DNA of 64,000 nucleotides from Thiomicrorhabdus immobilis (lineage in GTDB: Bacteria > Pseudomonadota > Gammaproteobacteria > Thiomicrospirales > Thiomicrospiraceae): positions 248,001-312,000 of the forward strand of contig NZ_AP024202.1 of assembly GCF_021654855.1 (NCBI RefSeq), in the 5' to 3' direction. The notes beneath the pieces are model-generated. The model did not search any database and had not been told where the DNA came from. It saw only the letters and a program-made list of their open reading frames with translations. Both the position numbers and the translations under genes were made by a program. Positions within the stretch are counted from its first letter, which is position 1. Each line of letters starts with the position of its first letter. Shown here piece after piece: positions 7,061 through 55,760 of the stretch.

Positions 7061-7084
7061 AAACCTACCAGGCCTGGTAGGTTT
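7061..7084. repeat. ACCAGGCCTGGT copy 1, extended to a 24-bp perfect palindrome
   Basis: The exact 12-mer lies at 7067-7078 and is flanked by six more self-complementary bases on each side. It sits in the intergenic gap where ccoS (+) and the next gene (-) converge. As RNA it could form a stem, but there is no loop and no T-run, so a terminator role is doubtful. Confidence 0.9.
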
Positions 7085-7151
7085 ACAGAGTTTTCCAATT
7101 GCAATGAACTAAAAATTGTACGTATGCTAGCTGTTTGTATTGGTAGGGTGG

Positions 7152-7811
7152 CTACTGTTTTGAGGTGTATTGCAACGCTTCCGGACCTTCCGCATCAATA
7201 ATAAGCTCCAAACCTAACTTATCAAAAAACCAATGCGCTAATCCATCCGATTGGATTTCCTTGCGATCAGGTTGTCCAAAACGTTTATCGATTGCACGTT
7301 CAGTTAAATTGTTTCTAGGGATAAGAGCCATGCTCGAAATCGGCGAATTGAAGAACTTGGCTATTTCAGAGGTGTAAAGCTCAACCTCACGCTCACCAGA
7401 GGTGGTTAGAGAGGTTTTTTTCCCATTGCTATAGGCATTCTCTAGTTCTTCATTCGTCGCTTCTAATTTTAGGGTTAAGCCGGCTTTAATTGAGCCGATA
7501 TAGATAACCGGAAAATAAGCCTCCAGCGATTTATTCGATTCATCCTTATCGGAGAATAGTTTAACCTCAACATCCTTGCCATAAAGTGCCATAGCATCGC
7601 TTAATGTGGATTTATGTAGGGTCAAGCCTAAAGCATGCAGTTTTCCTTGCCCATCAAAGCTCGAGTTCCATGGTAAATGAGCCGTGTCTACCGGTTCACG
7701 ATCTGGCTGAATTAACAGCATTAATGAAAAACCAATCGTACTGATAAAAAATAGAATCCAAAAAACAGGCAGTTTCTTTGGAGTGTGTTTTGTCTGACTC
7801 GGTTTGGACAT
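7152..7811 (-). CDS. Unrecognised membrane-anchored protein
   Basis: A 219-residue protein with a Lys-rich N-terminus, one hydrophobic segment (about residues 15-34, VFWILFFISTIGFSLMLLIQ) and then a mainly polar domain probably facing the periplasm. I see no Cys lipobox and no motif that I can assign. It overlaps the upstream gene by one base (TAATG), so the two are almost certainly cotranscribed and may act together. The last third (DKRFGQPDRKEIQSDG, then WFFDKLGLELIID) looks like a folded alpha/beta domain. No function is proposed. Confidence 0.7.
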   Translation of the reverse strand: MSKPSQTKHTPKKLPVFWILFFISTIGFSLMLLIQPDREPVDTAHLPWNSSFDGQGKLHALGLTLHKSTLSDAMALYGKDVEVKLFSDKDESNKSLEAYFPVIYIGSIKAGLTLKLEATNEELENAYSNGKKTSLTTSGEREVELYTSEIAKFFNSPISSMALIPRNNLTERAIDKRFGQPDRKEIQSDGLAHWFFDKLGLELIIDAEGPEALQYTSKQ

Positions 7812-8410
7812 TACTGGTTATCATCCATTTTTTTGGTATTACCATGTTGTGCTTCGTCACTGCCTTCGCCCAGCTCTTCATTAGCCGTTTCACCACGTGG
7901 TAGGAATTTTTCGATTGCAGGATTCGAGATACCGTTTCCGGCATCATATACCGCAATACCTGTCTGCATGAAGGTGATCAAGACTGCGACAAAGATAACC
8001 ACTGCGGCAAAACGTAATGTAATCACTTCACCTAAATTGGTCTGATTGCCTTCGGTTGAAAAGTCATTCATACTGAATCCGCCAGGGAAAATCATATCAA
8101 TCAGTAGATACAGTCCGACCATTCCTAAAGCGATGGCATAACTGATCAGCAATATTCTGCCTCGTCTCCAAGCCATAATCCAATGTGACGCAACAAACCA
8201 AGTATCATTTTGAGATACCCTTTTGCTGGTCATGTATAGGTATCCAATCACTAAGCTAGAAATCAAAGGAATAAGAATTAATTCCAGGGAATCGCCAATC
8301 TCTAGAATGATCATCGACATGAAAAGGTGGGTGATAATGATGTTTATATTGAAAATATGGTGAGGTGTTTTAGCACGTCTTTTTTCATCGTCGGTTACGC
8401 GATAATGCAT
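7811..8410 (-). CDS. Unrecognised multi-pass membrane protein
   Basis: A 199-residue protein with four likely membrane helices (about residues 24-40, 43-60, 86-107 and 132-152) and a long acidic, hydrophilic C-terminal tail of about 45 residues (NPAIEKFLPRGETANEELGEG and onwards). The N-terminus MHYRVTDDEKRRAKTPHHIFN is polar. I do not recognise the family. It is followed with one-base overlap by another membrane-anchored unknown, and lies just downstream of an Hpt phosphotransfer gene on the same strand, so a link to signalling or the envelope is possible but unproven. Confidence 0.7.
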   Translation of the reverse strand: MHYRVTDDEKRRAKTPHHIFNINIIITHLFMSMIILEIGDSLELILIPLISSLVIGYLYMTSKRVSQNDTWFVASHWIMAWRRGRILLISYAIALGMVGLYLLIDMIFPGGFSMNDFSTEGNQTNLGEVITLRFAAVVIFVAVLITFMQTGIAVYDAGNGISNPAIEKFLPRGETANEELGEGSDEAQHGNTKKMDDNQ

Positions 8411-8830: not shown

Positions 8831-8852
8831 ATTCCTTTTAGTAAATGTAAAA

Positions 8853-11063: not shown

Positions 11064-11501
11064 TCAAACTTCCAACCAAAATGTCACTGGGCCATCATTG
11101 GTCAATGAAACTTGCATGTCAGCCCCAAATTTACCCGTTTGGATGGAGGGGTGTTGTTGACGGCAATGTTCGACGAATTGATCGAAAAGCAGGGTGGCTA
11201 CCGCCGGTGATGCCGATGATGAAAAGCTGGGACGTAGCCCGCTTTTGGTATTGGCGGCTAAAGTGAATTGCGGCACCAATAATAGTTCCCCCTTTACCTG
11301 CTTCACGTTTAAGTTCATTTTGTCGTTTTCATCAGAAAAGAGTCGGTAGTTTAATAACTTATGAGTCATTTTTGTTATAGAGTCAATGTTGTCGTTCGGT
11401 TGAAATGCTGTCAAAACGACCAGGCCTGCTGATATTTCACCAACCGTTTTTTGTTCTACCTCAACTTTACCTTTCGTGACTCTTTGGATTAAACAGATCA
11501 T
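11064..11501 (-). CDS. dtd: D-aminoacyl-tRNA deacylase
   Basis: DTD hydrolyses D-amino acids and glycine wrongly attached to tRNA. The 145-residue product has the family motifs PQFTLAANTKSGLRPSFSSS and, at the C-terminus, the Gly-cisPro active-site motif TNDGPVTFW. I choose ATG 11501 (MICLIQRVTKGKV), one base past the stop of the upstream prolyl iminopeptidase; the frame extends 12 codons further but that part overlaps the neighbour and is not DTD-like. A one-mismatch copy of the window's 12-bp palindrome (ACCAGGCCTGCT, 11419-11430) lies inside the gene, coding AGLV. Confidence 0.95.
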   Translation of the reverse strand: MICLIQRVTKGKVEVEQKTVGEISAGLVVLTAFQPNDNIDSITKMTHKLLNYRLFSDENDKMNLNVKQVKGELLLVPQFTLAANTKSGLRPSFSSSASPAVATLLFDQFVEHCRQQHPSIQTGKFGADMQVSLTNDGPVTFWLEV

Positions 11502-11502
11502 C

Positions 11503-21137: not shown

Positions 21138-21149
21138 ACCAGGCCTGGT
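21138..21149. repeat. ACCAGGCCTGGT copy 2 (intergenic)
   Basis: Exact copy between the nested-hairpin repeat and the metH terminator. A 10/12 relative (GCTAGGCCTGGT, 20782-20793) lies 350 bases upstream in the same gap. Confidence 0.9.
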
Positions 21150-21236: not shown

Positions 21237-24200
21237 TTAGTTGGCAAAATCTTCTGGGTCATACCCTAAGTTGGGGGCCAACCAGGTTTCGGCTTTTTCG
21301 ACTGTCCAGCCTTTGCGGTGGGCGTAGTCTTCTACTTGGTCGCGACCTAAAGAGCCAACCCCAAAATAACGTGATTCCGGATGGGCGAAATAGGTGCCTG
21401 AAACGGCTGCTGTTGGATACATCGCAAAACTGCTGGTGATTTCCAGGCCGATTTTTTCATCGGGTTTAAGTAGCTCCCATAGAATGCCTTTCTCGGTGTG
21501 GTCTGGGCAAGCTGGGTAACCAGCGGCAGGGCGAATCCCTTGATAACGTTCACGAATTAAATCTTCGTTTTCCAACGCTTCGTCTGGTGCATAGCCCCAA
21601 TCTTCTTTACGTACAATCTCATGCAAGGTCTCAGCAAAGGCTTCGGCAAAACGGTCTGCCAGGGCTTTGAGCATAATGGAACGATAATCATCGTGTTGCG
21701 CTTCAAAACGCTCGGTATGTTCATCAATCCCAATACCGGCCGTTACCGCAAAGAAACCGATGTAGTCGGCCACACCAGAGTCTTTTGAAGCGATAAAGTC
21801 AGACAGGCAGTTATTGGCGCCACCGCGTTTTTTCTCCGCCTGTTGACGTAGATGATGGAAGCGGTGAATCACTTCTGAGCGGCTTTCATCGGCGTAGACT
21901 TCGATATCATCGCCCACACGGTTGGCTGGGTAGAAACCGTAAACTGCTTTTGCGGTCAACCATTTCTCTTCGATGATTTGTTTAAGCATAATTTGCGCGT
22001 CAGCAAAGACTTTTTTGGCTTCTTCACCGACCACTTTGTCGTCCAAAATACGCGGATAAAGACCATGTAATTCCCAAGACTGGAAGAATGGAGACCAGTC
22101 AAAACGCTCAACCAGTTTTTCCAACGGGAAATCCTCTAATACCTTAGTGCCTAAAAACTTAGGTTTAACCGGCGTGTAATCCGACCAGGCCTGGTCAGTT
22201 AAAGAAGGGTTTTCTCGCGCTTTATTGATTGGGATTCGACGTACCTCTTTAGCACGCGCTTTACGCTCTTCACGCACCTGTTCATATTCGGCGCGAATCT
22301 TGGCGGCAAAATCGCCTTTTAAATCGGCAGAAATCAAACTTTGCGCCACACCTACGGCACGCGAAGCGTCTTTAACATAGACTACCGGATGATCATATTG
22401 CGGTTCGATCTTCACCGCGGTGTGTGCTTTAGAGGTGGTTGCGCCGCCAATCAGTAGCGGTAAATCCATATTGCGTTCTTTCATAAGCTTGGCCACATTC
22501 ACCATCTCTTCTAAAGAAGGGGTGATAAGCCCAGAAAGACCGATGACATTCGCACCTTCGGCAATGGCAGTGTCCAAGATTTTCTCGGCCGGCACCATCA
22601 CACCTAGGTCGATGACTTCAAAGTTATTACACTGTAATACCACGCCCACGATGTTTTTACCGATATCGTGAACATCCCCTTTTACCGTAGCCATGACGAT
22701 TTTACCCTGCACGCGGGTGGAGTCTTTTTCCGCAAGCAGGAACGGGTCAAGGTAGGCGACCGCACGTTTCATTACACGAGCCGATTTCACCACTTGCGGC
22801 AGGAACATTTTACCTGAACCAAACAGGTCACCGACCACGTTCATACCGTCCATTAACGGTCCTTCGATGACATTGATCGGTGCACCCAGTTTAACGCGGG
22901 CTTCTTCGGTGTCTTCTTCAATAAAGTCGGTAATGCCTTTTACCAGCGAGTGTTCCAGACGCTTCTCAACCGTAGCGTCACGCCACGCCAAATCCGCTTC
23001 TTTAGAGGCTGCGGTGCCATCACCCAAAAATTCGGCGGCAATCTCCAGTAAACGTTCACCGGCCTCTGGGTCTTTGTTGAGAATGACATCTTCAACCGCT
23101 AAACGTAAACGCTCGGGAAGGTCGTCGTAAATCGCCATTTGCCCGGCGTTGACAATCCCCATGTCCATGCCTTCTTTAATGGCGTAGTACAAGAATACCG
23201 AGTGAATCGCTTCACGCACCGGGTTATTACCACGGAATGAGAAGGAGACATTGGACACCCCGCCGGAAATCTTGGCGTATGGTAGGTTCTGTTTAATCCA
23301 GGTAACGGCATTGATAAAATCCAAACCGTAGTTGTTGTGTTCTTCAATCCCGGTGGCGACCGCAAAGATGTTCGGGTCAAAAATGATGTCTTGCGGTAAA
23401 AAGCCCACTTTTTGGGTTAAGACTTCATAAGAGCGTTTACAGATTTCGATTTTACGTTCAAGCGTATCGGCCTGACCGTCTTCATCAAATGCCATTACGA
23501 TGGCCGCCGCACCGTATTTTTTGACCAGGGTGGCATGCTTAATAAAGGCTTCTTCACCCTCTTTAAGCGAGATGGAGTTGACCACCCCTTTACCCTGAAT
23601 GCACTTCAAGCCCGCTTCGATGACTTCAAATTTTGAGGAGTCAATCATAATCGGTACACGGGAGGCTTCCGGTTCAGAGGCCAATAGGTTCAAGAAACGC
23701 ACCATGCACGCTTTGGCGTCCAGCATACCTTCGTCCATATTGACGTCGATGATTTGCGCACCATCCTCAACCTGCTTAACCGCGATATTGATGGCGTCGT
23801 CGTAGTTTTCTTCAATGATTAAACGCTTGAACAGAGCCGATCCGGTGACGTTGTTACGTTCACCGACGTTTACAAACAAGCTGTCTTCGTCGATGTTTAA
23901 CGGCTCTAAACCGGATAAACGACAAGCGGGTTTGATTTCTGGAAGCGCACGTGCCGGTTTGGCTTGTGCGGCTAAAGCCATCGCTTGAACGTGGTCGGGA
24001 GTCGTTCCACAGCAGCCACCGATGATATTGATCCAACCACGGTCAGCCCAGACAGCAATCTCTTCGGCCATTTGCTCTGGGGTCTCGTCGTATTCACCGA
24101 ATTCATTCGGCAGGCCGGCATTCGGGTGGATCGAGACATAGGTTTCGCAGACACGGCTTAATTCTTGCACATAAGGACGAAGTTCTTCAGGCCCTAAAGC

Positions 24201-24947
24201 GCAGTTTAAACCGACTGAAAGTGGTTCGGCATGCGCCACCGCATTATAAAACGCTTCGGTGGTTTGCCCCGATAAAGTACGCCCTGAGGCATCGGTGATG
24301 GTACCCGAAAGTTGAATCGGTACTTCATAACCGACTTCATCTTCAACCTCTTTGACCGCAAAAATAGCGGCTTTGGCGTTTAGGGTGTCAAAGATGGTTT
24401 CAATCAGAATGGTGTCCACGCCACCTTCTAACAAAGCATGGGTGGCTTGTTTGTATGCGATGACCAGTTCATCAAACGAGGTGTTGCGGTAACCAGGGTC
24501 ATTCACATCTGGAGAAATCGAAGCAGTGCGGTTGGTTGGCCCAAGCACCCCGGTGACAAAACGCGGTTTGCCGTCTTCGGCTTCGGCAATGTCACAGGCT
24601 TCACGCGCCACTTTGGCGGCGGCGATATTAATCTCGGTGACATACTCTTGCATGTCGTAATCGGCTTGGGCAATGGTGGTGGCGTTGAATGAGTTGGTCT
24701 CAAGAATATCCGCACCCTTACGCAAGAACTCAAGATGAATCTCACGAATCACTTCCGGTTTGGTGATGACTAGGATGTCATTATTGCCTTTGATGTCCAT
24801 GTGATAATCGGCAAAACGCTCGCCACGAAAATCTTCTTCGGTCAGATTCAGGTTCTGAATCATGGTGCCCATGGCTCCATCAAGAACCACCACACGTTCT
24901 TTAAGAAGGTTGCGAAGAGTTTGAATGCGTTCTGTACGTTTTGTCAT
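21237..24947 (-). CDS. metH: Cobalamin-dependent methionine synthase MetH
   Basis: Transfers a methyl group from 5-methyltetrahydrofolate to homocysteine through methylcobalamin; 1236 residues, full length. Domains in order: homocysteine-binding (about 1-330, zinc ligands in VGLNCALG and IGGCCGTT), pterin-binding (about 350-620), the cap and B12 domain (about 650-890) with the lower axial ligand His760 in GDVHDIGKN, and the AdoMet activation domain (about 925-1236, with [12 protein letters not shown]). The linker before the activation domain contains DQAW at 918-921, encoded by a copy of the 12-bp palindrome. No cobalamin or SAM riboswitch is evident in the 259-bp upstream gap. It implies that the cell makes or imports B12. 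Confidence 0.98.
22184..22195. repeat. ACCAGGCCTGGT copy 3 (inside metH)
   Basis: Encodes DQAW, residues 918-921, in the linker between the B12 and activation domains. Confidence 0.9.
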
Positions 24948-25206: not shown

Positions 25207-26304
25207 ATGCTCTGCCAAGTTTATCCTGAACAATATGAATCGCAGTTGGCCGATAAGGTAACTCGATTAAACCAACTGCTCCCGCCATCCGCCCAAGACA
25301 AACCGCAAACCGTGTTTGCTTCTAGTCCAGAACATTACCGTGCGCGTGCCGAGTTTCGTATTTGGCATGAAGGCGATGAGTCGGATTACATCATGTTCAA
25401 TCAGGAAACCAAAGAGAAGGTAGCGATTAAAGAGTGCCCGATGGCGATAGAGTCGATTGCCGATTTGATGCCGAAATTAATGGCTGAAATCATCCGGCAA
25501 CCGGTGTTGCGTGAACGTCTGTTTCAGGTGGACTTTTTAGCGACGTTGAGCGGGCAAATGCTGGTGACCTTGATTTACCGTAAGTCAATCCAAGATGACC
25601 AGGCCTGGTTAGATGCGGCACAGGCTTTGAAAACTTGCTTGCCAATTACCCATATTATCGGCCGTGCGCGTAAACAGAAGATTCTATTGGACGAAGATTT
25701 TGTGGTGGAAGAGCTGCAGGTGGATGGTAAAAAATTCATTTACCAGCAAATAGAAAATAGCTTTACCCAACCAAATGCCAAGATGGCGCAAAACATGTTG
25801 CATTGGGCACGTAAGATGTCACAAGATGCAGAAGGTGATTTGATTGAATTGTATTGTGGAAACGGTAACTTCTCCATCGCCCTAAGTGAACATTACAACC
25901 GTGTGTTGGCAACGGAAATCTCCAAAACCTCGGTGGCATCGGCGCAATTCAATATCGCCGCCAACCAGGTAGATAACCTTACGGTCATTAAAATGGCCGC
26001 AGAAGAGATTAGCGCAGCCCTTCAAGGCCAACAATTCAATCGTTTAAAAGACATCGATTTGAATAGCTATGATTTTCAAACCATTTTTGTCGATCCACCG
26101 CGCTCTGGTCTGGATGATTTAACCCGCCAGATGGTGACTGAGTTCGAGCGCATTATCTATATCTCCTGTAACCCGGAAACTTTGGCGATTGATTTAGCCT
26201 CCATCCAGAAAACCCATGAGATTGTCGAAACCGCTTTGTTCGACCAGTTTCCGTACACCCACCATATTGAATCGGGTGTGTTTTTAAAGAGAAAGGAGCC
26301 GTAG
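25207..26304 (+). CDS. trmA: tRNA (uracil-5-)-methyltransferase TrmA
   Basis: Makes 5-methyluridine at position 54 of tRNA; 365 residues, the usual length. N-terminal [18 protein letters not shown] and [15 protein letters not shown] are diagnostic of TrmA. The SAM site is [15 protein letters not shown], the catalytic Cys is in [11 protein letters not shown], and VDPPRSGLD and the C-terminal [16 protein letters not shown] motif are intact. A TATAAT at about 25160 in front of the gene is a possible -10. The next gene starts directly after its stop codon. Residues 131-134 (DQAW) are encoded by the 12-bp palindrome. Confidence 0.97.
25598..25609. repeat. ACCAGGCCTGGT copy 4 (inside trmA)
   Basis: Encodes DQAW, residues 131-134, at a place where related TrmA proteins tend to have a similar D-x-W helix start. 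Confidence 0.9.
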
Positions 26305-27928: not shown

Positions 27929-28969
27929 CTAACCATGCGTTTTGATTGGACAGCGGTAAAGGTGTGCTTGACCATTTTTTAGTCCATCCTGGACGATTAA
28001 AAAATCGATGCTATGGGCTTGTTTCTTTATGAACTGAATCCCTTCAGGTTTGCCAGAAGATGGGGGGAGGTCACAGAGGTGAATCAGGTTGTCGCTGGGT
28101 GTGTCGTTAGCGGTAATGGCGTTTTCGGCGTTCCATAAACTCACTTGGTAGGGCAGTGGTTGGTCGCCAACAGCGCCGCTTAACACCAAAAATTGCTCAG
28201 GTTTTGAGAGGGGAACTTCAGATAAACCACGCACGCCATTTCCGGCCGTAGTGATATACAGCAGTTTGGATTTTTTGATGGCGAAGCGGTTTTTGGCAAG
28301 TTTTAAACGCAGTATTGGCACAATATTGCCTCGGAACACAGGGCCTCTAAATCCCAGAAGTAACCGACCTTGGCCATCAATCGCCAAACCTTCTATATCA
28401 ATGCCGTTCTCTTTGCTTGGTAAACCGATAAAGGGTTTTAATAAAGGGTGTCGTGTCAGCTCTTGTTGGATGGAGAGCGATTGTTGTTGAATGACCCTGG
28501 CGGCGGAATCCAATTCGAGTCTGACCAGTTTTTGTCTTGCCGGCTCAGCATAAATGGTTTGTAACCGTGCGATGTTGTCCTTTTGGTTAAGCGAGTTTTT
28601 AAGTTTTTTGCGTTTGGCACTGTGTGAGCCGAGCGCATATAAATATGGGGCTTGCCAGGCCAAAGCTTCGATATCCATCTCTTCAGAGTCATCACTTAAT
28701 TGAATCACATTAATCGATTTCCAGCTTTTTTTATTGTCGGCTTTGAAAATTTGGATTTGATTGCCTTCATCGGTCGCTAAAGCCATAAAGTTATCGGTAA
28801 TGACGACTCCGCTGATATTTAATGGATCGATTTTAAGCGGCTCAGAAAATGACCAGGCCTGGTCGTTTAGTATTTGAGCAATCGGTTTAGCCCAGGTCAA
28901 AGGGCTAACAATTAGGTTAGATAATAAAACCGTGAATAAGATGATAATGCGCATAGGTTTCCAATTCAA
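27929..28969 (-). CDS. DUF3616-type secreted beta-propeller-like protein
   Basis: A 346-residue protein with a signal peptide (hydrophobic about residues 7-25, cleavage likely after WAKP or nearby), so it is exported. Repeated blade-like strands such as GVVITDNFMALATDEGNQIQIF, DIEALAWQAPYLYALGSH and GIDIEGLAIDGQGRLLLGFRGP match DUF3616 and the related esterase-like phytase group. Enzymatic activity is not established for the family. DQAW at residues 36-39, just after the signal peptide, is encoded by the 12-bp palindrome. A second ATG five codons in is also possible. Confidence 0.8.
   Translation of the reverse strand: MNWKPMRIIILFTVLLSNLIVSPLTWAKPIAQILNDQAWSFSEPLKIDPLNISGVVITDNFMALATDEGNQIQIFKADNKKSWKSINVIQLSDDSEEMDIEALAWQAPYLYALGSHSAKRKKLKNSLNQKDNIARLQTIYAEPARQKLVRLELDSAARVIQQQSLSIQQELTRHPLLKPFIGLPSKENGIDIEGLAIDGQGRLLLGFRGPVFRGNIVPILRLKLAKNRFAIKKSKLLYITTAGNGVRGLSEVPLSKPEQFLVLSGAVGDQPLPYQVSLWNAENAITANDTPSDNLIHLCDLPPSSGKPEGIQFIKKQAHSIDFLIVQDGLKNGQAHLYRCPIKTHG
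28852..28863. repeat. ACCAGGCCTGGT copy 5 (inside the DUF3616 gene)
   Basis: Encodes DQAW, residues 36-39 of the secreted protein. Only 125 bp from copy 6. Confidence 0.9.
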
Positions 28970-37396: not shown

Positions 37397-38737
37397 CTAT
37401 TGTGGGTTTTTAGGGTCTATGCCAAGTGCTTTTAATTTGCGGTACAAATTGGTTCTATCCACTCCGGAACGTTTGGCCGTTTCGGAGACGTTTCCGCCGG
37501 TTTCGCGTAATAGCTGGCTTAAATAACGAGCTTCAAACTGCTCTTTTCCTTCTTTTAGCGGCAGGCTGGTATCAACCACTTCACCAATCGAATTGCTTGC
37601 CTGAGAGTTCATCAGTAACTCTTTGACTTCGTCATCGCTGACATCATCACTGCCTAAAATCAACAGGCGTTGAATGAGGTTTTTCAACTCTTTTAAGTTA
37701 CCAGGCCAGGTGTGTTGGCGCAGAATGTTTTGTGCGGAAACGCTAAAATGGCGATACTCTAAACCTTCATAAGTGACGAAGTGGTTGACAAAGTATTCAA
37801 TCAGTTCTGGAATGTCTTCTGTGTGCTGACGTAACGCAGGGATATGCATTTGCATGACCTTCAAGCGTTGATAAAGGTCTTCTCTGAAATTCTGGTGGGC
37901 AACCATGCCCTCTATATCGGTTTTTGTTAACGCAATGACACGAATATCGATACAGATGGCATCACTGTCATCGTCTAGTTTATAACACTGTTTTAAAACG
38001 ATATTGGCTAGAATAGACTGCGCTTCTGCGGAAAGTTCTTCGATATTGGCGATAATCAAGGTGCCTTGATGGACTTCTCTTAAGGTTTTTTTAAGATTAT
38101 CCATATTTTCAGGTTGGCATAACTTGTTGAAGTCGAGAGAGTAGAAGTGTAAAAATGCAGAGGTATTGCGCTGACTTGTCTTGTGGATCGCCTCGGCAAA
38201 ACGGTGCTTTCCTGTGCCCGATTCACCGGTGACTAAAATCGGCATGGTGAATTTAGAAAGGCGTTCTAGGGTTTCGCGGAGCTGAATGACGGCTTTGCTT
38301 TTACCAACAGGCATAAAATGTTCAGGCTGTTTTTGCTTGAGTTGGCGATTTTCCTGGTTGAGTTGATTGTGTTCGATGGCGCGTTCCGCGGTCACGATCA
38401 ATTTCGCTAAAGACAGCGGCTTCTCAAGAAAGTCATAAGCACCTAAACGAGTAGCTTCAATGGCTGTTTCAATGGTGCCGTGCCCCGACATCATAATTAC
38501 CTTGGTGTTTTCTAGCACCCCTTCGTCTTGCATCTGTTTAAGTAGCGAAATTCCATCTATATCAGGCATCCAAACATCCAAGAATATGATGTCCGGTAAG
38601 AAACTACGCCAAGCTTGTTGGGCTTGAACACCATTAGCGGCGGTTTCGACTTGATATCCCTCTTCAATAAAAATTTCTTCCATTAAACTGCGGATATCGC
38701 GTTCATCATCCACAATTAATAATTTGCCTGGTTTCAT
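37397..38737 (-). CDS. ntrX: NtrX-like response regulator with a degenerate AAA+ domain
   Basis: A 446-residue NtrC-family regulator: receiver (about 1-120) with Asp54 in FLDVWMPDIDG and Lys in EKPLS, a central AAA+ domain and a Fis-type helix-turn-helix (GGNVSETAKRSGVDRTNLYRKLKALG). The AAA+ domain keeps Walker A (GESGTGKHRFAEAIH) and the Arg finger region (FREDLYQRL), but the GAFTGA loop that contacts sigma-54 is absent. The Walker B position reads GTLIIANIEEL where GTLFLDEIGDM is usual. It therefore probably does not drive sigma-54 transcription. It overlaps the kinase gene by four bases. Confidence 0.92.
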   Translation of the reverse strand: MKPGKLLIVDDERDIRSLMEEIFIEEGYQVETAANGVQAQQAWRSFLPDIIFLDVWMPDIDGISLLKQMQDEGVLENTKVIMMSGHGTIETAIEATRLGAYDFLEKPLSLAKLIVTAERAIEHNQLNQENRQLKQKQPEHFMPVGKSKAVIQLRETLERLSKFTMPILVTGESGTGKHRFAEAIHKTSQRNTSAFLHFYSLDFNKLCQPENMDNLKKTLREVHQGTLIIANIEELSAEAQSILANIVLKQCYKLDDDSDAICIDIRVIALTKTDIEGMVAHQNFREDLYQRLKVMQMHIPALRQHTEDIPELIEYFVNHFVTYEGLEYRHFSVSAQNILRQHTWPGNLKELKNLIQRLLILGSDDVSDDEVKELLMNSQASNSIGEVVDTSLPLKEGKEQFEARYLSQLLRETGGNVSETAKRSGVDRTNLYRKLKALGIDPKNPQ

Positions 38738-40920
38738 TCGTTCTCACTTGAGATTGTTGGAAGCTTTATTATAAAGCAGGTGCCGTTATTGGGTGAAGAG
38801 GTTAAGTTAATTTTGCCGTGATGTTCTTCAACAATTTTACGCACTACCGCTAGACCTAGGCCAGTTCCTTTTGGTTTATCTGTGGCGTAGGGTTCAAAAA
38901 TCCAGTTTTGAGCTTCTTCAGGGATGCCCGGACCATTATCGCAAATGGATAAGGTTAACCAGTCGGGGTCATCACTGTAGGTTTTAACTATGATTCTTGG
39001 CAAGATGGTGTTTTCGGTCGCTTCAATCGCATTCTTGATCAAGTTATGTAACAGCTGGCGCAAGCGTGAGCTGTCTACCAAGGTCTTTGGACAAGGCTCT
39101 TGGAGTTCGGCAAACACTTTCCAAGCGGCGTCTGGGTCACGATACATCTCGGTAATGTTAGAGATTAAGGTGTTGATTTTAGTCGGTACCAATTCCACTT
39201 CGGGTGTGTTGGCGTAATCACTGAAAGCTTGCACTAGTTTTTGCATGGTAGAAACCTGTTCGGTAATGGTTTCTGTCATTCGGGTGAGTAGGGCCTGGTC
39301 GGTTTCATCCAGTTTTCTGAACAGCTTATATTTTAAGCGTTCCGCTGAGAGCTGAATGGGGGTAAGAGGGTTTTTTATTTCGTGCGCAAGACGGCGGGCC
39401 ACATCACTCCATGCCGCATGTAATTGAGCTTGAACCAGTTCGGTAATGTCGTCGATAACGATAACGTAACCGCCGATTTTTTGGTCGATACTGGGTAGGG
39501 TGGAGCCATGGATCAACAGGATTTTTTGGCCTTTTTTACAGGCGAAATCAATCTGGGTTGACCACGGTTTAGAGCTTTTTTCAAACTTGGGGGCGATTTT
39601 ATTGACCAAGTCCATTAGGTGGGCGGTATCTTCGCGATCGGTAATATCGGCGATTTTTTTGCCGATATGGCGCTTCAAGTCGGTGTTGAGGATTTCTTGT
39701 ACGGCATCGTTAATGGTGCGGATGCGATAGTGCATGTCCAGCGTGACGACCCCGCTCGATAAGTTTTTGATGACGGCTTGAAGATAGAGTTTCTGTACCT
39801 CTGTTTGTTGATGCCCGAGCTTGATTTCGTTACGTGCTTGAGCGATACGTTGAATCATATCGTTGAAGGATTGGATTAAGTCTCCAAATTCGTCATTTTC
39901 GGGTACGGGCATTTTGACCGTGTAATCCCCTTTGGAAACCGCACGAGTTCCTTTGGCGAGCGTGCGGATTGGGCGGGTGAAGTTCTGTACGGCGGTAATG
40001 GTAAATAACACGGCAGTAACCAGGGTGAGTAGCAATACCATGGAGAGTATCAATACAAAACTGGCGGTAAGCGGGCCCTTAAGGTAAGAGAGCTCTTTGT
40101 ACTGCCCCGACGCGGTGGCGACTGAATCCGAAAGTAGGGTGATATCCGCGGGTACCGGGAAGATGACTTGTAATGCAAATTGATTGCTGAGCTGGCTGTC
40201 CGAGAATGGAATGACCACTCGAATAAAGTTCTCTTGCAAGGTTGCGCCAGCCCGGCTCTCAAGAGCCGCATAGGTTTTGCCATTACGAATTTGTTGAAAC
40301 AAGTTGGCTCCCGGAGCTTCCGGAAGGATTGCGGTGGCGTATTCACTACTGAATGCGACGAGCTGTTGGTTGATGTTATAAAGCGCGACCTCTTGAGCGT
40401 TAAGTTGCTGGCGTATCATATTGACCGCGAGGCTCGGCGATTCCGTCAATAGGGCTTTATTGGCCTTGGAGATGGAGAGTGTTAGTTTTAAGCTGTCACG
40501 GGTTTTATTGTCAAGGGTGATGCGAACCAGGGAGGTGGCGTTGTCCAAAGCGACTTCGGTTTTAACGTCAAACCATTGGTTGATGCCTTGCTGAATGAAC
40601 GTGAGAGAGAAGTAGAAAATGATCGCCGTTGGAATACCTAAAACTAAGCTGGCTATAACGGTTAGACGGACGGTTACTTTGGAGCCTGGGACTTTCTTGC
40701 GAAACTGGGTATAGAGTTTGAATACGGTTCTGAAGAGCAGGACCAATAACAATGTTACCCCGCCTATCGTAAAAAACAGCAAGGTCGAGTAGCTGTCGGC
40801 AAAGCTCGAAGCATTTTGTAGCGTTTGGCTCATCACCACCAAAGCCATCAGCAATAAGCTTGATATCAGGGTTACCCAACCATATTGTTTGATATAGCGC
40901 CAGTATGAATTCATTGCCAA
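38734..40920 (-). CDS. ntrY: NtrY-like sensor histidine kinase
   Basis: A 728-residue membrane kinase. Three N-terminal helices (about 15-32, 46-66 and 86-108), a periplasmic region of about 160 residues and a further helix (about 280-305) precede a HAMP domain, a PAS domain and the kinase core. The phospho-acceptor is His513 in RRLAHEIKNPLTPIQLSAERL; ATP-binding motifs NAIEAT, DNGPGIP and GTGLGLAVV are intact. The signal is unknown. It is coupled to the NtrX-like regulator downstream and overlaps the DUF4390 gene upstream by ten bases. Confidence 0.94.
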   Translation of the reverse strand: MAMNSYWRYIKQYGWVTLISSLLLMALVVMSQTLQNASSFADSYSTLLFFTIGGVTLLLVLLFRTVFKLYTQFRKKVPGSKVTVRLTVIASLVLGIPTAIIFYFSLTFIQQGINQWFDVKTEVALDNATSLVRITLDNKTRDSLKLTLSISKANKALLTESPSLAVNMIRQQLNAQEVALYNINQQLVAFSSEYATAILPEAPGANLFQQIRNGKTYAALESRAGATLQENFIRVVIPFSDSQLSNQFALQVIFPVPADITLLSDSVATASGQYKELSYLKGPLTASFVLILSMVLLLTLVTAVLFTITAVQNFTRPIRTLAKGTRAVSKGDYTVKMPVPENDEFGDLIQSFNDMIQRIAQARNEIKLGHQQTEVQKLYLQAVIKNLSSGVVTLDMHYRIRTINDAVQEILNTDLKRHIGKKIADITDREDTAHLMDLVNKIAPKFEKSSKPWSTQIDFACKKGQKILLIHGSTLPSIDQKIGGYVIVIDDITELVQAQLHAAWSDVARRLAHEIKNPLTPIQLSAERLKYKLFRKLDETDQALLTRMTETITEQVSTMQKLVQAFSDYANTPEVELVPTKINTLISNITEMYRDPDAAWKVFAELQEPCPKTLVDSSRLRQLLHNLIKNAIEATENTILPRIIVKTYSDDPDWLTLSICDNGPGIPEEAQNWIFEPYATDKPKGTGLGLAVVRKIVEEHHGKINLTSSPNNGTCFIIKLPTISSENE

Positions 40921-41594
40921 CTCAATGGGGTTTGTAAGGAGGTTTCAAACCACTGACTTTCAAGTTGCCAAGTTGAGGTGGTCAAGGCTTCTAAAATCAG
41001 TGGTGCCGGTAGTTTCCAATAATCTAAAGAGATTTTCATGCGTAAAGTATACCGCTGTTCCGGGTGCAATTCTGAAAGAGATGCAATCGGAAAGGCTTGC
41101 AAGGTAGCAAGCGTTTGCAAGGCCTCCTCTAAGGTAGTGAAAGATTGTGCTTTTTGATTTCGGTGATTATACAAGGCATACAGCCGGTTTACGCCATAAG
41201 CATAGAGATCGGTGCTATATTCCACCACATTCCGAATCCGTTCATATTTAATCCCCAAAGTTTGCGTGGCTTCGGTTAATTCAATTCGGGTGGTAAAACT
41301 CAACGGAATTTCATGGTGTATGGCATCAATCACCGTTTGCGGTAGGTTGAAACGGCTCTCGGAGTCGATCAGTAACTGTTTGTCTTTTTGGTAATCTCTA
41401 ACCTTGAGAATGGTGATTTCATTTTCAATTGCAGCGGATTGGGCTGTTACCAGGCCTGGTAGGATTAAAATCAGCACACTCAAAATGCTGCTTAAAACCG
41501 GGCGTATTTGCGATTTTTTGGGGTGAAATAGCTGATGACCAAGCTGTTGGCCGCTTTGCAAATTCATTGAAATAAATGCAAATAGCCAGGTCAT
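40911..41594 (-). CDS. DUF4390 exported protein
   Basis: A 227-residue protein of the DUF4390 family, typically encoded between rsmB and ntrY as here. A hydrophobic signal segment (about residues 31-51) ends at TAQSA, so the mature part is periplasmic and could serve as an accessory sensor for NtrY, which is an inference from gene order only. PGLV at residues 46-49, inside the signal peptide, is encoded by a copy of the 12-bp palindrome. An internal ATG nine codons in is an alternative start. Confidence 0.85.
   Translation of the reverse strand: MTWLFAFISMNLQSGQQLGHQLFHPKKSQIRPVLSSILSVLILILPGLVTAQSAAIENEITILKVRDYQKDKQLLIDSESRFNLPQTVIDAIHHEIPLSFTTRIELTEATQTLGIKYERIRNVVEYSTDLYAYGVNRLYALYNHRNQKAQSFTTLEEALQTLATLQAFPIASLSELHPEQRYTLRMKISLDYWKLPAPLILEALTTSTWQLESQWFETSLQTPLSWQ
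41449..41460. repeat. ACCAGGCCTGGT copy 9 (inside the DUF4390 gene)
   Basis: Encodes PGLV (residues 46-49) in the signal peptide; one of two copies read in the other frame. Confidence 0.9.
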
Positions 41595-41597: not shown

Positions 41598-42935
41598 TTA
41601 CAGACTCTTCTGCAATAAGCAGTAAAAGAAACCGTCCATGCCTGAACGTCCTGGTAAATATTGGTTACCGGGTGTTTCAAAGGTTAGGGTCGTTTCTAAG
41701 GTTAGCGGTATGACGCTAGCACTGGGCTCGGATTCAATAAAGTTCTGCATCTGCAAAGTGTTCTCTTGCGGCAGTACCGAACAGGTTGCATACAGCAGTT
41801 GGCCACCAGGTTTTAAGGTCGGCCAAAGCGCTTTAAGGATAGCCCCTTGAATTTCCACCAAGGTCTCGATATCCTCTTCGGTTCTATGCCATTTAATGTC
41901 AGGATGACGGCGGATGATACCGGTCGCTGAACAGGGTGCATCCAGTAGGATTTTATCGAACAGCTGTTGGTCCCACCACTCATCTGGAATAGAGGCGTCG
42001 CCTACCGCATAGTCAGCATGCAACTCTAAACGGTGTAAGTTTTCAGCCAGCCGTTCCATCCTTTCAGGCGCTTTTTCTAAAGCAAAGACAAGTGCTTGGT
42101 TGTTGGACAATTCCAATAAATGTGTGGTTTTGCCACCCGGTGCGGCACAAGCGTCTAATATCCGTTCACCGGCTTTGGGTTGCAAGATATTGGCGGCTTG
42201 TTGCGCCGCACCGTCTTGCACACTGAAACCGCCTTCTTCATAGGTTGGCAGTTGGGTGATATCGGTGCTGTTTTCGAGAATCACGCCTTGAGGAGCGGTT
42301 GGATGCGCTGAGGCTTGAATGCCTACGTTATTAAGCTTTTCGAGAAAGGCTTCACGAGTTTGCTGGATGGTATTGACCCTTAAGGTCAAGGGTGCAATCT
42401 CGTTGTTGGCTTGCATGATTTCCTGCCACTCTTCCGGGTAGCCTTTACGCAACGCTTTGAACAACCATTGAGGATGGGAATATTTTTGCGCCGGTTTGAG
42501 GTCGACTTCATCACAAATCGCTTGTTGGTCACGGATGAAGTTACGCAATACGCCATTGACCAATGCCTTGGCCCAGGGCTTTTTAAGTTTTTGCACCACG
42601 GCAACGGTCTCGGAAACCGCTGCATGTTCAGGTGTGTCCATATACAGGATTTGATAAAGGCCAATCAGAATCAGTTGGTTGATATCTTCATCTTTGTCTT
42701 TGAGCTTCTTTTTCAGTAGTTGTGCACGGATGGCCTCTAAACGTGCCTGCCAACGCAAGGTGCCAATCACCAGGTTTTGGGTGAAATTACGTTCTCTACG
42801 GTCACTGAACTGAGCCAGGCCTTCAGGCAAACTTTGGCTTAATGAACGGCCGCTTTCAATAACCGTCAAACAGATCTTTAGGGCGATAAATCGGCTGTTT
42901 AAAACGGTTTGCTTATTCTCGGTAGCGTGGCTCAT
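41598..42935 (-). CDS. rsmB: 16S rRNA m5C967 methyltransferase RsmB
   Basis: Methylates cytosine 967 of 16S rRNA; 445 residues. An N-terminal NusB-like domain (about 1-150) includes [15 protein letters not shown]. The catalytic domain has SAM motif [14 protein letters not shown], the motif IV Cys in [19 protein letters not shown] and the motif VI Cys in [11 protein letters not shown]. It overlaps fmt by four bases, in the conserved order def-fmt-rsmB. Confidence 0.96.
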
Positions 42936-43897
42936 GAAAACTGATAACCCACCAAATTACGAGCCTGGGCAAAATCATACGCACTCATCGCCTTTTTACC
43001 TGCCGGTTGCACCAGTTGTAGACAAATCGGTTGGTCACCGGTAGCGACAATCAATCCTTGTTTGTTCAAACCTAGTACCAGGCCTGGTGAGTTTGCTGAT
43101 TCGTTCGTTGCAAATTCGGTTTGCTCTTCTGCGGTTAGTTGACGTGCTTGCCAGACTCGTAAAGGTTGTTCTTGATACAGTGTGTAAGCCACTGGCCAGG
43201 GGTTAAAGGCTTGGATTTTACGGATAATCTTCAGGGCGGGTTGCTGCCACTGGATTAAGGCCTCTTCCTTATGCATTTTTTCGGCATAAGTGACTAGGGA
43301 TTCATCTTGTTTTTCAGGGATGATGTTGCCATTTTGTAGACCGTCCAAAGTCGCCATCAGTGCCTTGCAACCTAATTCACTCAAACGGTCATGCAAGGTT
43401 TGCGCAGAATCTTCGTCGGTGATGTCGGTGCTCAGTTTATAAAGCATGTCGCCTGTGTCCAAGCCCGCATTCATCTGCATGATGGTCACGCCACTTTGCT
43501 GGTCACCCGACTCGATTGCACGTTGGATAGGTGCGGCGCCGCGCCATCTTGGTAGTAAAGAGGCATGAATGTTCAGGCAGCCCATTTTAGGCATATCCAA
43601 CACCACCTGCGGCAGAATCAGGCCATAAGCAACCACTATCATAATGTCCGCATTCAGGTCGTTTAAGATTTGTTGAGCTTCCGCATCACGCAAAGATTCG
43701 GGTTGGAATACCGGAATGTCATTTTCCAATGCAAGCTGTTTAACCGGGCTGGCGGTTAATTTTCGGCCGCGGCCTGCAGGCCGGTCAGGCTGGGTATAGA
43801 CCGCAACCACTTCATGCGGTGAATCGATTAATGTTTGTAATGGCGCAACTGAAAAATCAGGGGTACCTGCAAAAATAATGCGTAATGCTTGGCTCAT
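42932..43897 (-). CDS. fmt: Methionyl-tRNA formyltransferase
   Basis: Formylates initiator methionyl-tRNA; 321 residues. [18 protein letters not shown], the formyl-folate motif [21 protein letters not shown] and [17 protein letters not shown] are diagnostic. The C-terminal OB-like domain (about 205-321) contains PGLV at residues 271-274, coded by a palindrome copy. It lies six bases after def and overlaps rsmB. Confidence 0.97.
43077..43088. repeat. ACCAGGCCTGGT copy 10 (inside fmt)
   Basis: Encodes PGLV (residues 271-274) in the C-terminal domain, following a non-conserved Thr/Glu/Asn-rich stretch. Confidence 0.9.
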
Positions 43898-44458: not shown

Positions 44459-45577
44459 ATGTCAAATTTTGCCGATTTACCCACAATGTTATCCATGCAG
44501 ATAGCGCATGTCTCCTTTAGGCAGTTGCAAGCGGTACAGCAGCACTTTGGAAGTTTACAAACCGCATTGGAATCACCGCAAGCCGACTGGCAACGTGGTG
44601 AATTATTGAGTGAAGCGCAATTGGCCATTCTGTTTGCGGATGATTTGCAAGCGCGGTTAGATGAAGCTTTAGCTTGGGGTGAAGAGAACAACCAGGCCTG
44701 GTTACTGTTAGGTGATAAAGAATATCCACAGTCGTTGACTGAAATCAGTGAAGCGCCGATTGTTTTGGGTGTCCGCGGCAATATCGAATTGTTGAGTGAT
44801 CCGCAAATCGCTATTGTGGGTAGTCGTCATGCTTCTCGATTAGGCGTGGAAACCGCAAAAGATTTTGCCAAACATCTCTCTTCACAAGGATTGGCGATTA
44901 CCAGCGGGCTGGCTTTGGGGATTGATACAGCGGCCCATAAAGGGGCTTTGGAAGGGGTTGGTAAAACCGTTGCTGTGGTGGCAACCGGTTTGGATCGCAT
45001 TTATCCAGCATCCAACCAAAAATTGGGTCATCAGATTGCTGAAGAGGGGGCGATGATCTCAGAGTTTCCTTTAGGCACTAAACCACTTAACTATAATTTC
45101 CCACGCCGAAACCGGATTATAAGTGGCTTGAGTTTAGGCACTTTAGTGGTGGAGGCTGCATTGAAGAGCGGTTCATTGATTACCGCAAGAACCGCTTTGG
45201 AACAAGGTCGGGAAGTATTTGCCGTACCTGGTTCCATTCATAATCCATTGGCGAAAGGCTGCCATCAATTAATCAAACAAGGTGCAAAACTGGTTGAATC
45301 CGGGCAAGATGTTTTAGAGGAGCTGTCAAGCAATCTACAGTCGACGTTGAATCTGTTTGCAGAGCAATCAACCGTTGAAAAGAAGTCAGCTTCAGCCGTC
45401 AACACCCAAAGTCAGAGTAAATTGTTGGAGTGGATTGGTTATGATGCGATTGGCTTAGATGAATTGGTGGTGTTGAGCAAAATGCCGGTGTCTAGTTTGC
45501 AAGGTGAATTGATGTTGTTGGAGCTTTCCGGTGAGGTTGAGGCCTTATCGGCGGCGCGTTGGCGAAGAATCAGGTAA
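44459..45577 (+). CDS. dprA: DNA processing protein DprA
   Basis: A 372-residue single-strand DNA binding protein that loads RecA on incoming DNA in natural transformation. The Rossmann-like core has IAIVGSRHASRLGVETAKDFA, ITSGLALGIDTAAHKGAL and FPRRNRIISGLSLGTLVVEA. The last 60 residues form the winged-helix DML1 domain. NQAW at residues 78-81, in the N-terminal variable part, is encoded by a palindrome copy. Its 3' end overlaps the convergent regulator gene by eight bases. With yifB/comM at 53538 it hints at competence. Confidence 0.95.
   Translation: MSNFADLPTMLSMQIAHVSFRQLQAVQQHFGSLQTALESPQADWQRGELLSEAQLAILFADDLQARLDEALAWGEENNQAWLLLGDKEYPQSLTEISEAPIVLGVRGNIELLSDPQIAIVGSRHASRLGVETAKDFAKHLSSQGLAITSGLALGIDTAAHKGALEGVGKTVAVVATGLDRIYPASNQKLGHQIAEEGAMISEFPLGTKPLNYNFPRRNRIISGLSLGTLVVEAALKSGSLITARTALEQGREVFAVPGSIHNPLAKGCHQLIKQGAKLVESGQDVLEELSSNLQSTLNLFAEQSTVEKKSASAVNTQSQSKLLEWIGYDAIGLDELVVLSKMPVSSLQGELMLLELSGEVEALSAARWRRIR
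44691..44702. repeat. ACCAGGCCTGGT copy 11 (inside dprA)
   Basis: Encodes NQAW, from Asn78, between the N-terminal helical part and the Rossmann core. Confidence 0.9.
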
Positions 45578-53529: not shown

Positions 53530-53537
53530 TTGTTTAA

Positions 53538-55073
53538 ATGTTTTTAGCCTCTTTATGCACACGCGCCGTTTTAGGAATGGATTCGCCATTAGTTACGGTT
53601 GAGGTGCATGCAAGTAATGGCTTACCTTCTTTTTCCATTGTTGGTTTGCCTGAAGCTTCGGTAAAAGAGAGTAAGGATAGAGTCCGTAGCGCTTTAATCA
53701 GTTCAGGTTTCAAACTACCTCCTAAAAGGATTACCGTTAACCTCGCTCCTGCCGATTTACCTAAAACCGGTGGCCGTTATGATTTAGCGATTGCTTTGGG
53801 TATTTTGATTGCCACTGAGCAGCTACATGTTGAGGATATAGGTCAATTTGAGTTTTTTGGTGAACTAGCTTTAACGGGCGAACTGAGAGGGGTTAAGGGG
53901 CTGATTCCAGGTTTGTTGGCGGCTCATAAAGACACCAAACGCGTTATTGTTGCGGCAGACAATGAAGAAGAGGCGCAGTTGGTATTACAAACCTATCCCG
54001 ACTTTGAGGGTGCTCTGTTTGCCGTCACCAATTTACGGGATGCTTGTCGGGTATTACAGCAAGAGTTCCCTCCGCTTAAAATCCAAGAAAACATTTCCAT
54101 CACCGAGGCTGACTATCCAGACGATTTGGCGGATGTACAGGGGCAATTCCAAGCTAAAAGGGCGCTGGAAATCTGTGCGAGTGGACACCATTCTATGCTG
54201 ATGGTCGGCCCCCCTGGTGCTGGAAAAAGCATGCTGGCTTCTCGTTTGGTGACGATTCTTCCTGCGTTAAGTTCTGAGGAAGCTGTCGAGGTCGCCAGTA
54301 TCCGTTCACTTGGTGGGCAAAATATTACGGCGCAAGGTTTTTATCAAAGACCGTTTGTGCATCCACATCATACCGCTTCAGCTGCAGCGATGGTGGGTGG
54401 CGGTACGACACCAAAACCGGGTGCGATGTCGTTAGCGCATCATGGAGTCTTGTTTTTAGATGAATTGCCGGAGTTCAACCGTGCCGTTTTGGAGGCCTTA
54501 AGAGAACCTCTAGAAACCAAGATGGTGAATATTTCCCGTGTTAATCAGCATGTCAGCTATCCTGCCAATAATTTATTAATCACTGCCATGAATCCTTCGC
54601 CGAGTGGATTTTTTCCCGATGACCCTAAAGGTCGATGTAAGGATACACCGGAACAGATCTTACGCTACCAGAAAAAAATCTCGGGTCCTTTGCTTGACCG
54701 TATAGACCTGCACCTAGAACTGCCTGCTGTGGATGTGTTGGATTTACAAGGTAAACCTAATAAGAATGCTACAGAGAACAGCGCTACCATAAGACAAAGG
54801 GTCGCTGTGGTTAGGGAGCGTCAGTTGGTGCGGCAGGGTTGCTTCAATTCACAATTACAACCGAATGAATTGCAGGATATTGTGGTACTTGACGCTCCAA
54901 GTCAGGCATTAATCGAAAAAGCGGTGAATGAATTAGGCTTGTCAGCCCGTGGTTATCATCGAATACTGCGTGTTGCCCGAACCATTGCAGATATGGAAGA
55001 ATCAGATAAAGTGGAAGCTCAACACGTTGCAGAAGCATTGAGTTACCGGGCGGCTTCTAAGGCGTTTGTTTAG
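53538..55073 (+). CDS. comM: YifB/ComM family AAA+ ATPase
   Basis: A 511-residue Mg-chelatase-like AAA+ protein. In naturally transformable bacteria the ComM member is a helicase for branch migration during integration of incoming DNA. N-terminal ChlI domain (about 1-130; GMDSPLVTVEVHASNGLP, SIVGLPEASVKESKDRVRSA), Walker A GPPGAGKS at residues 224-231, Walker B VLFLDELPEF, and a C-terminal domain with LSARGYHRILRVARTIADME. It directly abuts the next gene. Confidence 0.95.
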   Translation: MFLASLCTRAVLGMDSPLVTVEVHASNGLPSFSIVGLPEASVKESKDRVRSALISSGFKLPPKRITVNLAPADLPKTGGRYDLAIALGILIATEQLHVEDIGQFEFFGELALTGELRGVKGLIPGLLAAHKDTKRVIVAADNEEEAQLVLQTYPDFEGALFAVTNLRDACRVLQQEFPPLKIQENISITEADYPDDLADVQGQFQAKRALEICASGHHSMLMVGPPGAGKSMLASRLVTILPALSSEEAVEVASIRSLGGQNITAQGFYQRPFVHPHHTASAAAMVGGGTTPKPGAMSLAHHGVLFLDELPEFNRAVLEALREPLETKMVNISRVNQHVSYPANNLLITAMNPSPSGFFPDDPKGRCKDTPEQILRYQKKISGPLLDRIDLHLELPAVDVLDLQGKPNKNATENSATIRQRVAVVRERQLVRQGCFNSQLQPNELQDIVVLDAPSQALIEKAVNELGLSARGYHRILRVARTIADMEESDKVEAQHVAEALSYRAASKAFV

Positions 55074-55760
55074 ATGGATTCTATTTATATAACAGCGTTT
55101 ATCGTTGGTGTGCTTGGTGGTGTTCACTGTCTTGGAATGTGTGGAGGTGTAGTTGGCGGGCTGACTTTTAGCCTCGATAGCCGGGCGCAAACCAGTTGGT
55201 GGAAGATGATGCCCTATCAACTATTATATAACTTTGGACGAATCAGTAGTTATATGGTTATAGGCGCCTTATTTGGTGTCTTTGGGGCGACATTGGGCTC
55301 CTTGGCAGTGTTTTTACCTGCGCAGCAACTACTGCAAACCGTCGCCGGTCTATTTATGATCGCTTTGGGTCTTTATCTAGGAGGTTGGTGGTTTGGGGTA
55401 GCTAAAGTAGAGGTTTTGGGGCAAAAACTTTGGAAACGATTAGCTCCTTTTACGACGAAATTCACTCCAGTAAAACATTATCACCAGGCCTGGTTATATG
55501 GATTGGTTTGGGGATGGCTGCCTTGTGGTTTGGTTTATAGTATGTTGATTATGGCGATGAGTGCCGGTAGTGCTTTGAATGGTGCAGGAGTCATGTTGGC
55601 TTTTGGTTTGGGCACTTTACCCAACTTGATGTTAATGGGGGTTTTTGCCTTTCACTTCACCCGTTTATCCAGAATGCTTTGGGTGAAACGTTTAGCGGGT
55701 TTAAGTGTGATTCTCATGGGTGGGTGGCAACTCTATTTAGCGTATAGCGTTACAGTTTGA
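55074..55760 (+). CDS. DsbD_2 / 'sulfite exporter TauE/SafE'-type membrane protein
   Basis: A 228-residue protein with six or so helices. GGVHCLGMCGGVVG in the first helix and WGWLPCGLVYSML in the fourth carry the conserved Cys residues of the DsbD_2 family (PF13386), often found near cbb3 oxidase or copper genes. Transport of reducing equivalents or copper is a reasonable guess. HQAW at residues 137-140, in the central cytoplasmic loop, is encoded by a palindrome copy. It starts at the base after the yifB stop. Confidence 0.85.
   Translation: MDSIYITAFIVGVLGGVHCLGMCGGVVGGLTFSLDSRAQTSWWKMMPYQLLYNFGRISSYMVIGALFGVFGATLGSLAVFLPAQQLLQTVAGLFMIALGLYLGGWWFGVAKVEVLGQKLWKRLAPFTTKFTPVKHYHQAWLYGLVWGWLPCGLVYSMLIMAMSAGSALNGAGVMLAFGLGTLPNLMLMGVFAFHFTRLSRMLWVKRLAGLSVILMGGWQLYLAYSVTV
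55483..55494. repeat. ACCAGGCCTGGT copy 12 (inside the DsbD_2 gene)
   Basis: Encodes HQAW, residues 137-140, in the loop between the two halves of the permease. Confidence 0.9.

Follow-up and report, generated by a model that had tools for sequence, protein, structure and literature searches.

A highly iterated palindrome with extended flanks and several dialects in Thiomicrorhabdus immobilis and its family: a possible DNA-uptake-type signal

We analysed a 64-kb window of the Thiomicrorhabdus immobilis chromosome (bases 248001-312000 of the single contig, 2,539,444 bases, of the genome referred to here as G000), in which the palindrome ACCAGGCCTGGT occurs in 12 exact copies; none was obtained in 100 dinucleotide shuffles. 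The whole genome contains 446 copies of this word, i.e. one perfect copy per 5.7 kb, and no copy of the reversed sequence. The system is real, strong and family-wide, and recognition at the DNA level is strongly implied. We tentatively interpret the word as a self-recognition signal of the DNA-uptake type, convergent with the uptake signal sequence (USS) of Pasteurellaceae, a reading that in our estimate falls just short of probable.

An earlier note on this DNA had named a genome-wide count near expectation as a result that would speak against an iterated word. The G000 sample, 1.2 Mb in 60 stretches of 20 kb at even spacing, contained 192 copies, compared with 0.03 (Markov order 0) to 0.41 (order 4) expected; a model of order 5, which already includes the hexamers of the motif itself, expects 6.0. 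The second-ranked 12-bp palindrome of the sample has only 3 copies. Copies with one mismatch were fewer than perfect ones (113), and 94 of them deviate at positions 1 and 2; for 60 control palindromes the number of one-mismatch copies was 0.9 on average and 3 at most. Perfect copies also outnumbered one-mismatch copies in G018 (27:10), G030 (17:7), G009 (13:5) and G033 (14:3), and the ratio was reversed for the exact word in G035 (5:22), G025 (0:9) and G005 (0:5), genomes that use other arms. Such an excess of perfect copies is given as a trait of USS and of the DNA uptake sequence (DUS), in contrast to ordinary regulatory sites (Redfield 2006, PMC1626085; here and below, published systems are described from excerpts of the papers cited). 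When the full word was masked, GGCC was below expectation (2790 vs 3825), CCAGG was at expectation (893 vs 855-920), AGGCCT was in excess (345 vs 163-207 expected) by about the number of partial copies of the 8-bp core CAGGCCTG, and CAGGCCTG itself was still found 167 times vs 12 expected. These counts indicate that the enriched entity is the long word together with its near copies, and they speak against the idea that the embedded CCWGG, GGCC or AGGCCT sites drive the enrichment.

The copies in the window are listed below; the host genes were assigned by Pfam, and an Rfam search of the window gave no match.
7067-7078, copy 1, in the gap between convergent open reading frames (ORFs), with flanks that pair over 6 more bases (possible bidirectional terminator).
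21138-21149, copy 2, in a gap directly downstream of metH.
22184-22195, copy 3, within metH (21237-24947, minus strand).
25598-25609, copy 4, within trmA (25207-26304, plus strand).
28852-28863, copy 5, within a DUF3616 gene (27929-28969, minus strand).
28977-28988, copy 6, in the gap between ORFs 27929-28969 and 29103-29969.
30009-30020, copy 7, within a lipid A acyltransferase gene (29969-30901, plus strand).
33875-33886, copy 8, within a methyltransferase-domain gene (33765-34355, minus strand).
41449-41460, copy 9, within a DUF4390 gene (40911-41594, minus strand), read as PGLV.
43077-43088, copy 10, within fmt (42932-43897, minus strand).
44691-44702, copy 11, within dprA (44459-45577, plus strand), a gene of the general transformation machinery.
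55483-55494, copy 12, within a DsbD_2-type membrane protein gene (55074-55760, plus strand).
11419-11430, one-mismatch copy ACCAGGCCTGCT, with the mismatch at an outer position, a class common genome-wide.
37700-37711, one-mismatch copy ACCAGGCCAGGT.
All 12 exact copies reported in the earlier note were confirmed at their coordinates, and the three at 7067, 21138 and 28977 do lie between ORFs. The claim of unrelated hosts held for metH, trmA, the DUF3616, acyltransferase, methyltransferase-domain and DUF4390 genes, fmt and dprA, while the supposed permease turned out to be the DsbD_2 membrane protein. The near copy at 11419 is genuine; it is not the sole one, since that at 37700 had been overlooked.

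The best explanation of the conserved surroundings is a signal of about 24-30 bp that has ACCAGGCCTGGT as its core and is flanked farther out by A/T tracts spaced by roughly one helical turn. The consensus unit can be written as AAANYN-ACCAGGCCTGGT-NRNTTT, with weaker A/T waves farther out. Among 383 flanks (both sides, G000 sample), the second flanking base was a purine in 94%, and bases 4-6 were T in 63, 63 and 53%. Copies in coding sequence showed the same flanks (purine 92%; T 52, 56 and 46%), indicating that the signal is not merely a terminator. Around intergenic copies the A/T waves extended to ~56 bp, with the strongest power at 11-12 bp; at coding copies, a ~12-bp wave is possibly mixed with codon effects. 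The clearest form of the extended signal was found in G033, a genome from another genus (loci L259-L262), where each side of the motif has three tracts, spaced by ~10.5-11 bp, with A/T contents of 94-97, 88-91 and 86% (18 sites).

Although genes, as called by a custom script, cover 89% of the sample, 104 of the 192 copies lie outside them. The 88 coding copies are read as QAW (39), PGLV (45) or TRPG (4). We compared G000 proteins with those of relatives in alignments from which duplicate sites were removed, the control counts being left as they were. In genomes with the same word, the motif-encoded amino-acid triplet was kept in 19 of 26 cases, compared with 47% of other triplets (Fisher 0.01), so that the word imposes residues on proteins, and the codons were identical in all 19 (control triplets 735/4999, 15%). 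In genomes with a variant word the triplet was kept in 15 of 24 cases, 14 of these with identical codons (control 1239/8132), and in motif-free genomes in 7 of 20, only one of the seven with identical codons (control 413/4627). At the window sites, motif-free genomes often had the same residues in other codons, for instance CAA GCG TGG. The codons CAG GCC TGG were present in all four aligned motif-bearing relatives at metH copy 3 and in all five at trmA copy 4, where two motif-free genomes have CAA GCG TGG and CAA GAT TGG. At three G000 sites each in G033 and G035, motif-rich genomes of other genera, the codons were kept in 0 of 6 cases. Gaps within the motif codons were absent from all 50 comparisons with motif-bearing genomes (0/26 same-word and 0/24 variant-word), and were seen in 1/21 with motif-free genomes and 1/4 with G023. 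Conserved codons in ungapped alignments show that many copies are old within the genus, were made by substitution and are kept at the DNA level.

Two other origins of the copies were weighed against these data. A protein-level constraint, i.e. a common QAW or PGLV peptide, would fit the finding that coding copies use mostly two frames. It is contradicted by the 104 copies outside genes, by the unrelated host genes and by the exact synonymous codons kept solely in motif-bearing genomes, and we give it next to no credence; the QAW peptide raised in the earlier note accounts for fewer than half of the coding copies. A short insertion element of the repetitive extragenic palindrome or miniature inverted-repeat transposable element type would explain the many identical copies and their excess outside genes. 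Copy 9 (41449), a site outside the set of 50 gap comparisons, points in the same direction: it was not kept in six aligned relatives, lies in a poorly conserved stretch and had gaps at or beside it in three of the six. The 88 copies inside predicted genes, the lack of constant sequence beyond the short-range bias and the ungapped motif codons largely contradict insertion, which we consider highly improbable. Of the two DNA-level processes offered in the earlier note, selection or insertion, the upkeep of the palindrome is thus strongly supported and insertion is not, although copy 9 lies in a gapped stretch.

A search with the acyltransferase gene gave a Thiomicrospira bin and Thiomicrorhabdus as the closest relatives with a name. 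The exact word ranged from 0 to 718 copies across 37 genomes of the family, and was found at most once in each of 21 genomes of the same class outside it. The core CAGGCCTG divided 58 family genomes into 30 rich (409-1133 copies) and 28 poor ones (0-74); four further genomes had 1173 (G008), 236 (G006), 5 (G022) and 3 (G029). In G025, G005 and G017 the core is abundant (900, 859 and 653 copies) but the full word occurs just 16-25 times; these genomes use AACAGGCCTGTT or AGCAGGCCTGCT among other forms. The core-poor G023 has 1025 copies of ACCGGCCGGT, which was found 0-15 times in 36 other family genomes. Within this one family, the dialects include ACCAGGCCTGGT, AACAGGCCTGTT/AGCAGGCCTGCT, TACCGGCCGGTA and an asymmetric word with ACCCGGCCTGTT in G020. 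In a 40-kb sample of this core-poor genome, the dispersed word is ACCCGGCCTGTT-GAG-TTT with a tract on one side only: ACCCGGCCTG occurred 10 times vs 0.13 expected, was followed by TTNRNTTT in eight cases and never had an A-rich upstream side. At loci L285-L286 of G020, several ACCCGGCCTGTT-GAG-TTTT copies have a second T-run ~12 bases on. GGCC stays at the centre in all dialects and, except in G035, a T-rich run lies ~10-12 bp away from the dyad. Samples (40-100 kb each) of G003, G014, G019, G024, G026 and G031 yielded no dispersed word of similar strength; the top 12-mers, checked in five of these six motif-poor samples, were mostly local repeats. Arrays of other kinds were also seen. In G018, locus L247 has from base 43 on 38 copies of GTGGATTGAAAC ~66 bp apart, by eye resembling a CRISPR (clustered regularly interspaced short palindromic repeats) array, and in G019 a tandem array of 98 TCGCTGCCGCCA at ~60-bp steps starts at base 9908 of L232. 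Local tandem repeats were located in G014 (L284 ~12679, period 5 bp), G031 (L275 ~19172, 18 bp) and G024 (L245 ~1096, 171 bp).

The 103 copies with a neighbouring gene on both sides were unevenly distributed among the types of intergenic region: 34 lay between convergent, 60 between co-directional and 9 between divergent genes, regions that make up 13, 65 and 22% of intergenic bases, respectively. Intergenic copies showed extra pairing at positions +1 to +3 (0.49 vs 0.30 expected at +1) and coding copies little; as the latter nevertheless have the extended flanks, termination was rejected as the sole function. Enrichment between convergent and depletion between divergent genes would also be expected of a preferred site for DNA gyrase, or another wrapping topoisomerase, that absorbs positive supercoils downstream of genes. 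A similar build, with a symmetrical centre and, on either side, A/T-G/C waves roughly one helical turn long, is described for the 10.75-bp gyrase motif (PMC6379681). That motif is degenerate, whereas ACCAGGCCTGGT is exact, and gyrase is universal, whereas the word is patchy. Moreover, a preference for G at -4 and A at -2 was shared by every gyrase and topoisomerase IV tested, which came from three species (PMC12324340, as excerpted), and the core, read from the motif alone with GGCC as the 4-bp overhang, has A and C at these positions. We therefore regard a gyrase site as quite improbable.

A further candidate is a palindrome of the cyanobacterial HIP1 type (GCGATCGC), which a DNA methyltransferase, together with linked repair, would create or maintain. 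HIP1 is likewise a highly iterated palindrome that is present, absent or replaced by alternate words in relatives, its outer bases vary most, as do those of ACCAGGCCTGGT copies with one deviation, and it has been tied to methyltransferases (Elhai 2015, PMC4390886). The present word differs from HIP1 in its longer core, its conserved flanks and its one asymmetric dialect; neither the flanking tracts nor the asymmetric word would be explained by a methyltransferase, and the sub-sites are not enriched alone. The earlier note had suggested a solitary methyltransferase acting on CCWGG, GGCC or AGGCCT. Searches with PF00145 and PF01555 gave no match in the motif-rich genomes G000, G021, G027 and G033 (the D12, HsdM and Eco57I families were not searched), which leaves this suggestion without support and makes a HIP1-type pairing with a methylase improbable.

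The word matches the features described for USS and DUS (PMC1626085, PMC3630211): its consensus is strict, it arises by substitution, A/T segments lie outside the core, and both dialects and terminator-like copies occur. The Pasteurellaceae USS, AAGTGCGGT or ACAAGCGGT, occurs in hundreds of exact copies of strict consensus, arises by substitution, forms sub-clade types and shows a non-coding excess with many coding copies (Redfield 2006, PMC1626085). Beside its core lies an A/T tract ending in T, followed roughly one turn farther out by more tracts (12 positions separate segments 2 and 3), as found here, and its one-sided tract has a counterpart in the asymmetric word of G020. Unlike USS, the core in the window is perfectly palindromic and has tracts on either side; the word also belongs to different bacteria. 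As with the DUS of Neisseriaceae, several dialects with an invariant centre (here GGCC) exist in one family, some members of which have none (Frye 2013, PMC3630211), and terminator-like intergenic copies are described for both DUS (PMC3630211) and USS (PMC5217627). DUS differs in having no flanking motifs, in being non-palindromic and in having a known receptor, ComP (PMC3630211). For the present word we infer a receptor, uptake and a drive that would act as follows. The word would spread over the chromosome by point substitution and a biased process; a receptor, either periplasmic or exposed on the cell surface, would favour DNA fragments bearing the word, and recombination would then spread and purify it. 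A change of the receptor could let the exact word drift into dialects, symmetric or not.

Competence genes are consistent with this scheme in part. G000 has matches to ComEC, DprA and PilT/U, and one to ComEA that falls slightly short of the NCBIfam cut-off and is HHH_3 in Pfam. A ComEA match (E <= 0.001) was found in all 30 motif-rich and in 20 of 27 motif-poor genomes (Fisher 0.003, kinship uncorrected; G020 counted as motif-poor), and setting G020 aside left the value at 0.003; G023 was omitted from the ComEA and PilT comparisons. Four small genomes without ComEA were motif-poor (35-67 copies of the 8-mer), as predicted beforehand. ComEC was rejected as a marker of the motif state, as it occurs in rich and poor genomes alike. 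Prepilins recognised by the N-terminal methylation motif only are candidate minor pilins (L223, 3734-5417; L180, 3003-3533).

Several observations weigh against the uptake interpretation. ComEA and ComEC are not confined to motif-rich genomes, most motif-poor ones having both. Contrary to what was predicted beforehand, PilT above the cut-off was missing in seven of 30 motif-rich genomes (G010, G035, G063, G075, G079, G080 and G081), of which G010 and G079 are incomplete. Haemophilus influenzae would take up USS-bearing DNA without PilT, but a check of the literature did not confirm this. The GspH/FimT-type pilins (PF12019), the predicted class of USS receptor, were not found in G000 and are doubtful as its receptor; among 24 genomes of the genus that were searched, PF12019 gave a match in two, and both of these are motif-poor. 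With one perfect copy per 5.7 kb, the word is sparser than USS and DUS, which occur about once per kb. Flanking tracts are absent from G035 despite its richness in the core, and the asymmetric dialect is that of 40 kb of one genome. We know of no palindromic uptake word, and a perfect palindrome suits a homodimer better than a pilin receptor. Finally, the copies on a phage-like contig need explaining under every model. When viral contigs were searched for the word plus one flank, 16 stretches were found, among them the 32.8-kb contig L302 (IMGVR_UViG_2788499856_000001), which carries six perfect copies within ~1.6 kb (positions 479, 711, 923, 1154, 1436 and 2030). Five of the six lie in gaps between small ORFs, beside a primase (PHROGs); the contig also has an integrase recognised by eye, and the copy density is 0.39 per kb (15.4 kb read) vs 0.18 per kb in G000. 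Another viral contig, L292 (11 kb), has three copies of the 12-mer and ORFs that by eye are terminase- and portal-like.

Since motif-rich genomes without a recognised PilT exist, a cytosolic dimeric protein stays a serious rival, if to our mind a rather doubtful one. The palindrome would be the site of a protein that organises or marks the chromosome, with the DNA bent or wrapped around it and the specificity shifted in some lineages; KorB/Noc/ParB-, SlmA- or Lrp-like families could fill such a role. The perfect dyad agrees with it, as do the purine ~8 bp and the T-tract ~10-12 bp away from that dyad in symmetric dialects other than that of G035, the long-range waves at intergenic copies, the sites kept at orthologous positions within the genus and the carriage by a phage-like contig. 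So does the even spread over the chromosome, where the copy number per stretch had a variance of 2.8 vs a mean of 3.2 in the 60 stretches. Gaps below 1 kb between perfect copies were rarer than under random placement (12.8 vs 19.9%), which was not the case for the 8-bp core, spaced as random; gaps below 100 bp were somewhat commoner, not significantly (3.8 vs 2.1%). There was no zoning towards origin or terminus in the G000 sample, and copies were found at both G+C-skew switch points. Noc, SlmA and MatP sites, unlike copies of ACCAGGCCTGGT, are depleted at such points, and the lack of depletion argues against a dimeric protein of this kind. The consensus is also far stricter than usual for binding proteins, the finding that the codons were not kept in G033 and G035 implies that single positions are dispensable, and the one-sided tract of G020 is ill-suited to a homodimer. 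The asymmetric word thus raises the odds for uptake and lowers those for a dimeric protein. Three stretches of G000, at 550213, 592537 and 634862, have low G+C content (0.377-0.390) and 3, 2 and 1 motif copies per 20 kb, and comEA and pilT/pilU are situated in the same part of the chromosome.

In the open-licence literature we found no description of the word, of a Thiomicrospira uptake sequence or of natural transformation in Thiomicrorhabdus, and the part of PMC5217627 consulted does not mention Thiomicrospira. Only a few bacterial families are as yet known to have uptake sequences; preferred ones were stated in 2006 for Pasteurellaceae and Neisseriaceae only (PMC1626085, as excerpted). It seems fairly probable that Thiomicrorhabdus-type sulfur oxidisers have either evolved a third, independent family of signals for self-DNA or possess a new system of recognition that acts chromosome-wide. 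Its word would exist in palindromic and one-sided forms and in four or more dialects, be missing here and there in the family, have flanks in phase with the helix and be carried by a phage-like element as well. If the word is instead a chromosome-binding site, it would be an unusually strict and evenly spread one. If it serves uptake, another case would be at hand in which one free-living genus combines dialects, absences and competence genes, and comparisons within it would allow ideas on how uptake specificity arose, and on its receptor, to be tested.

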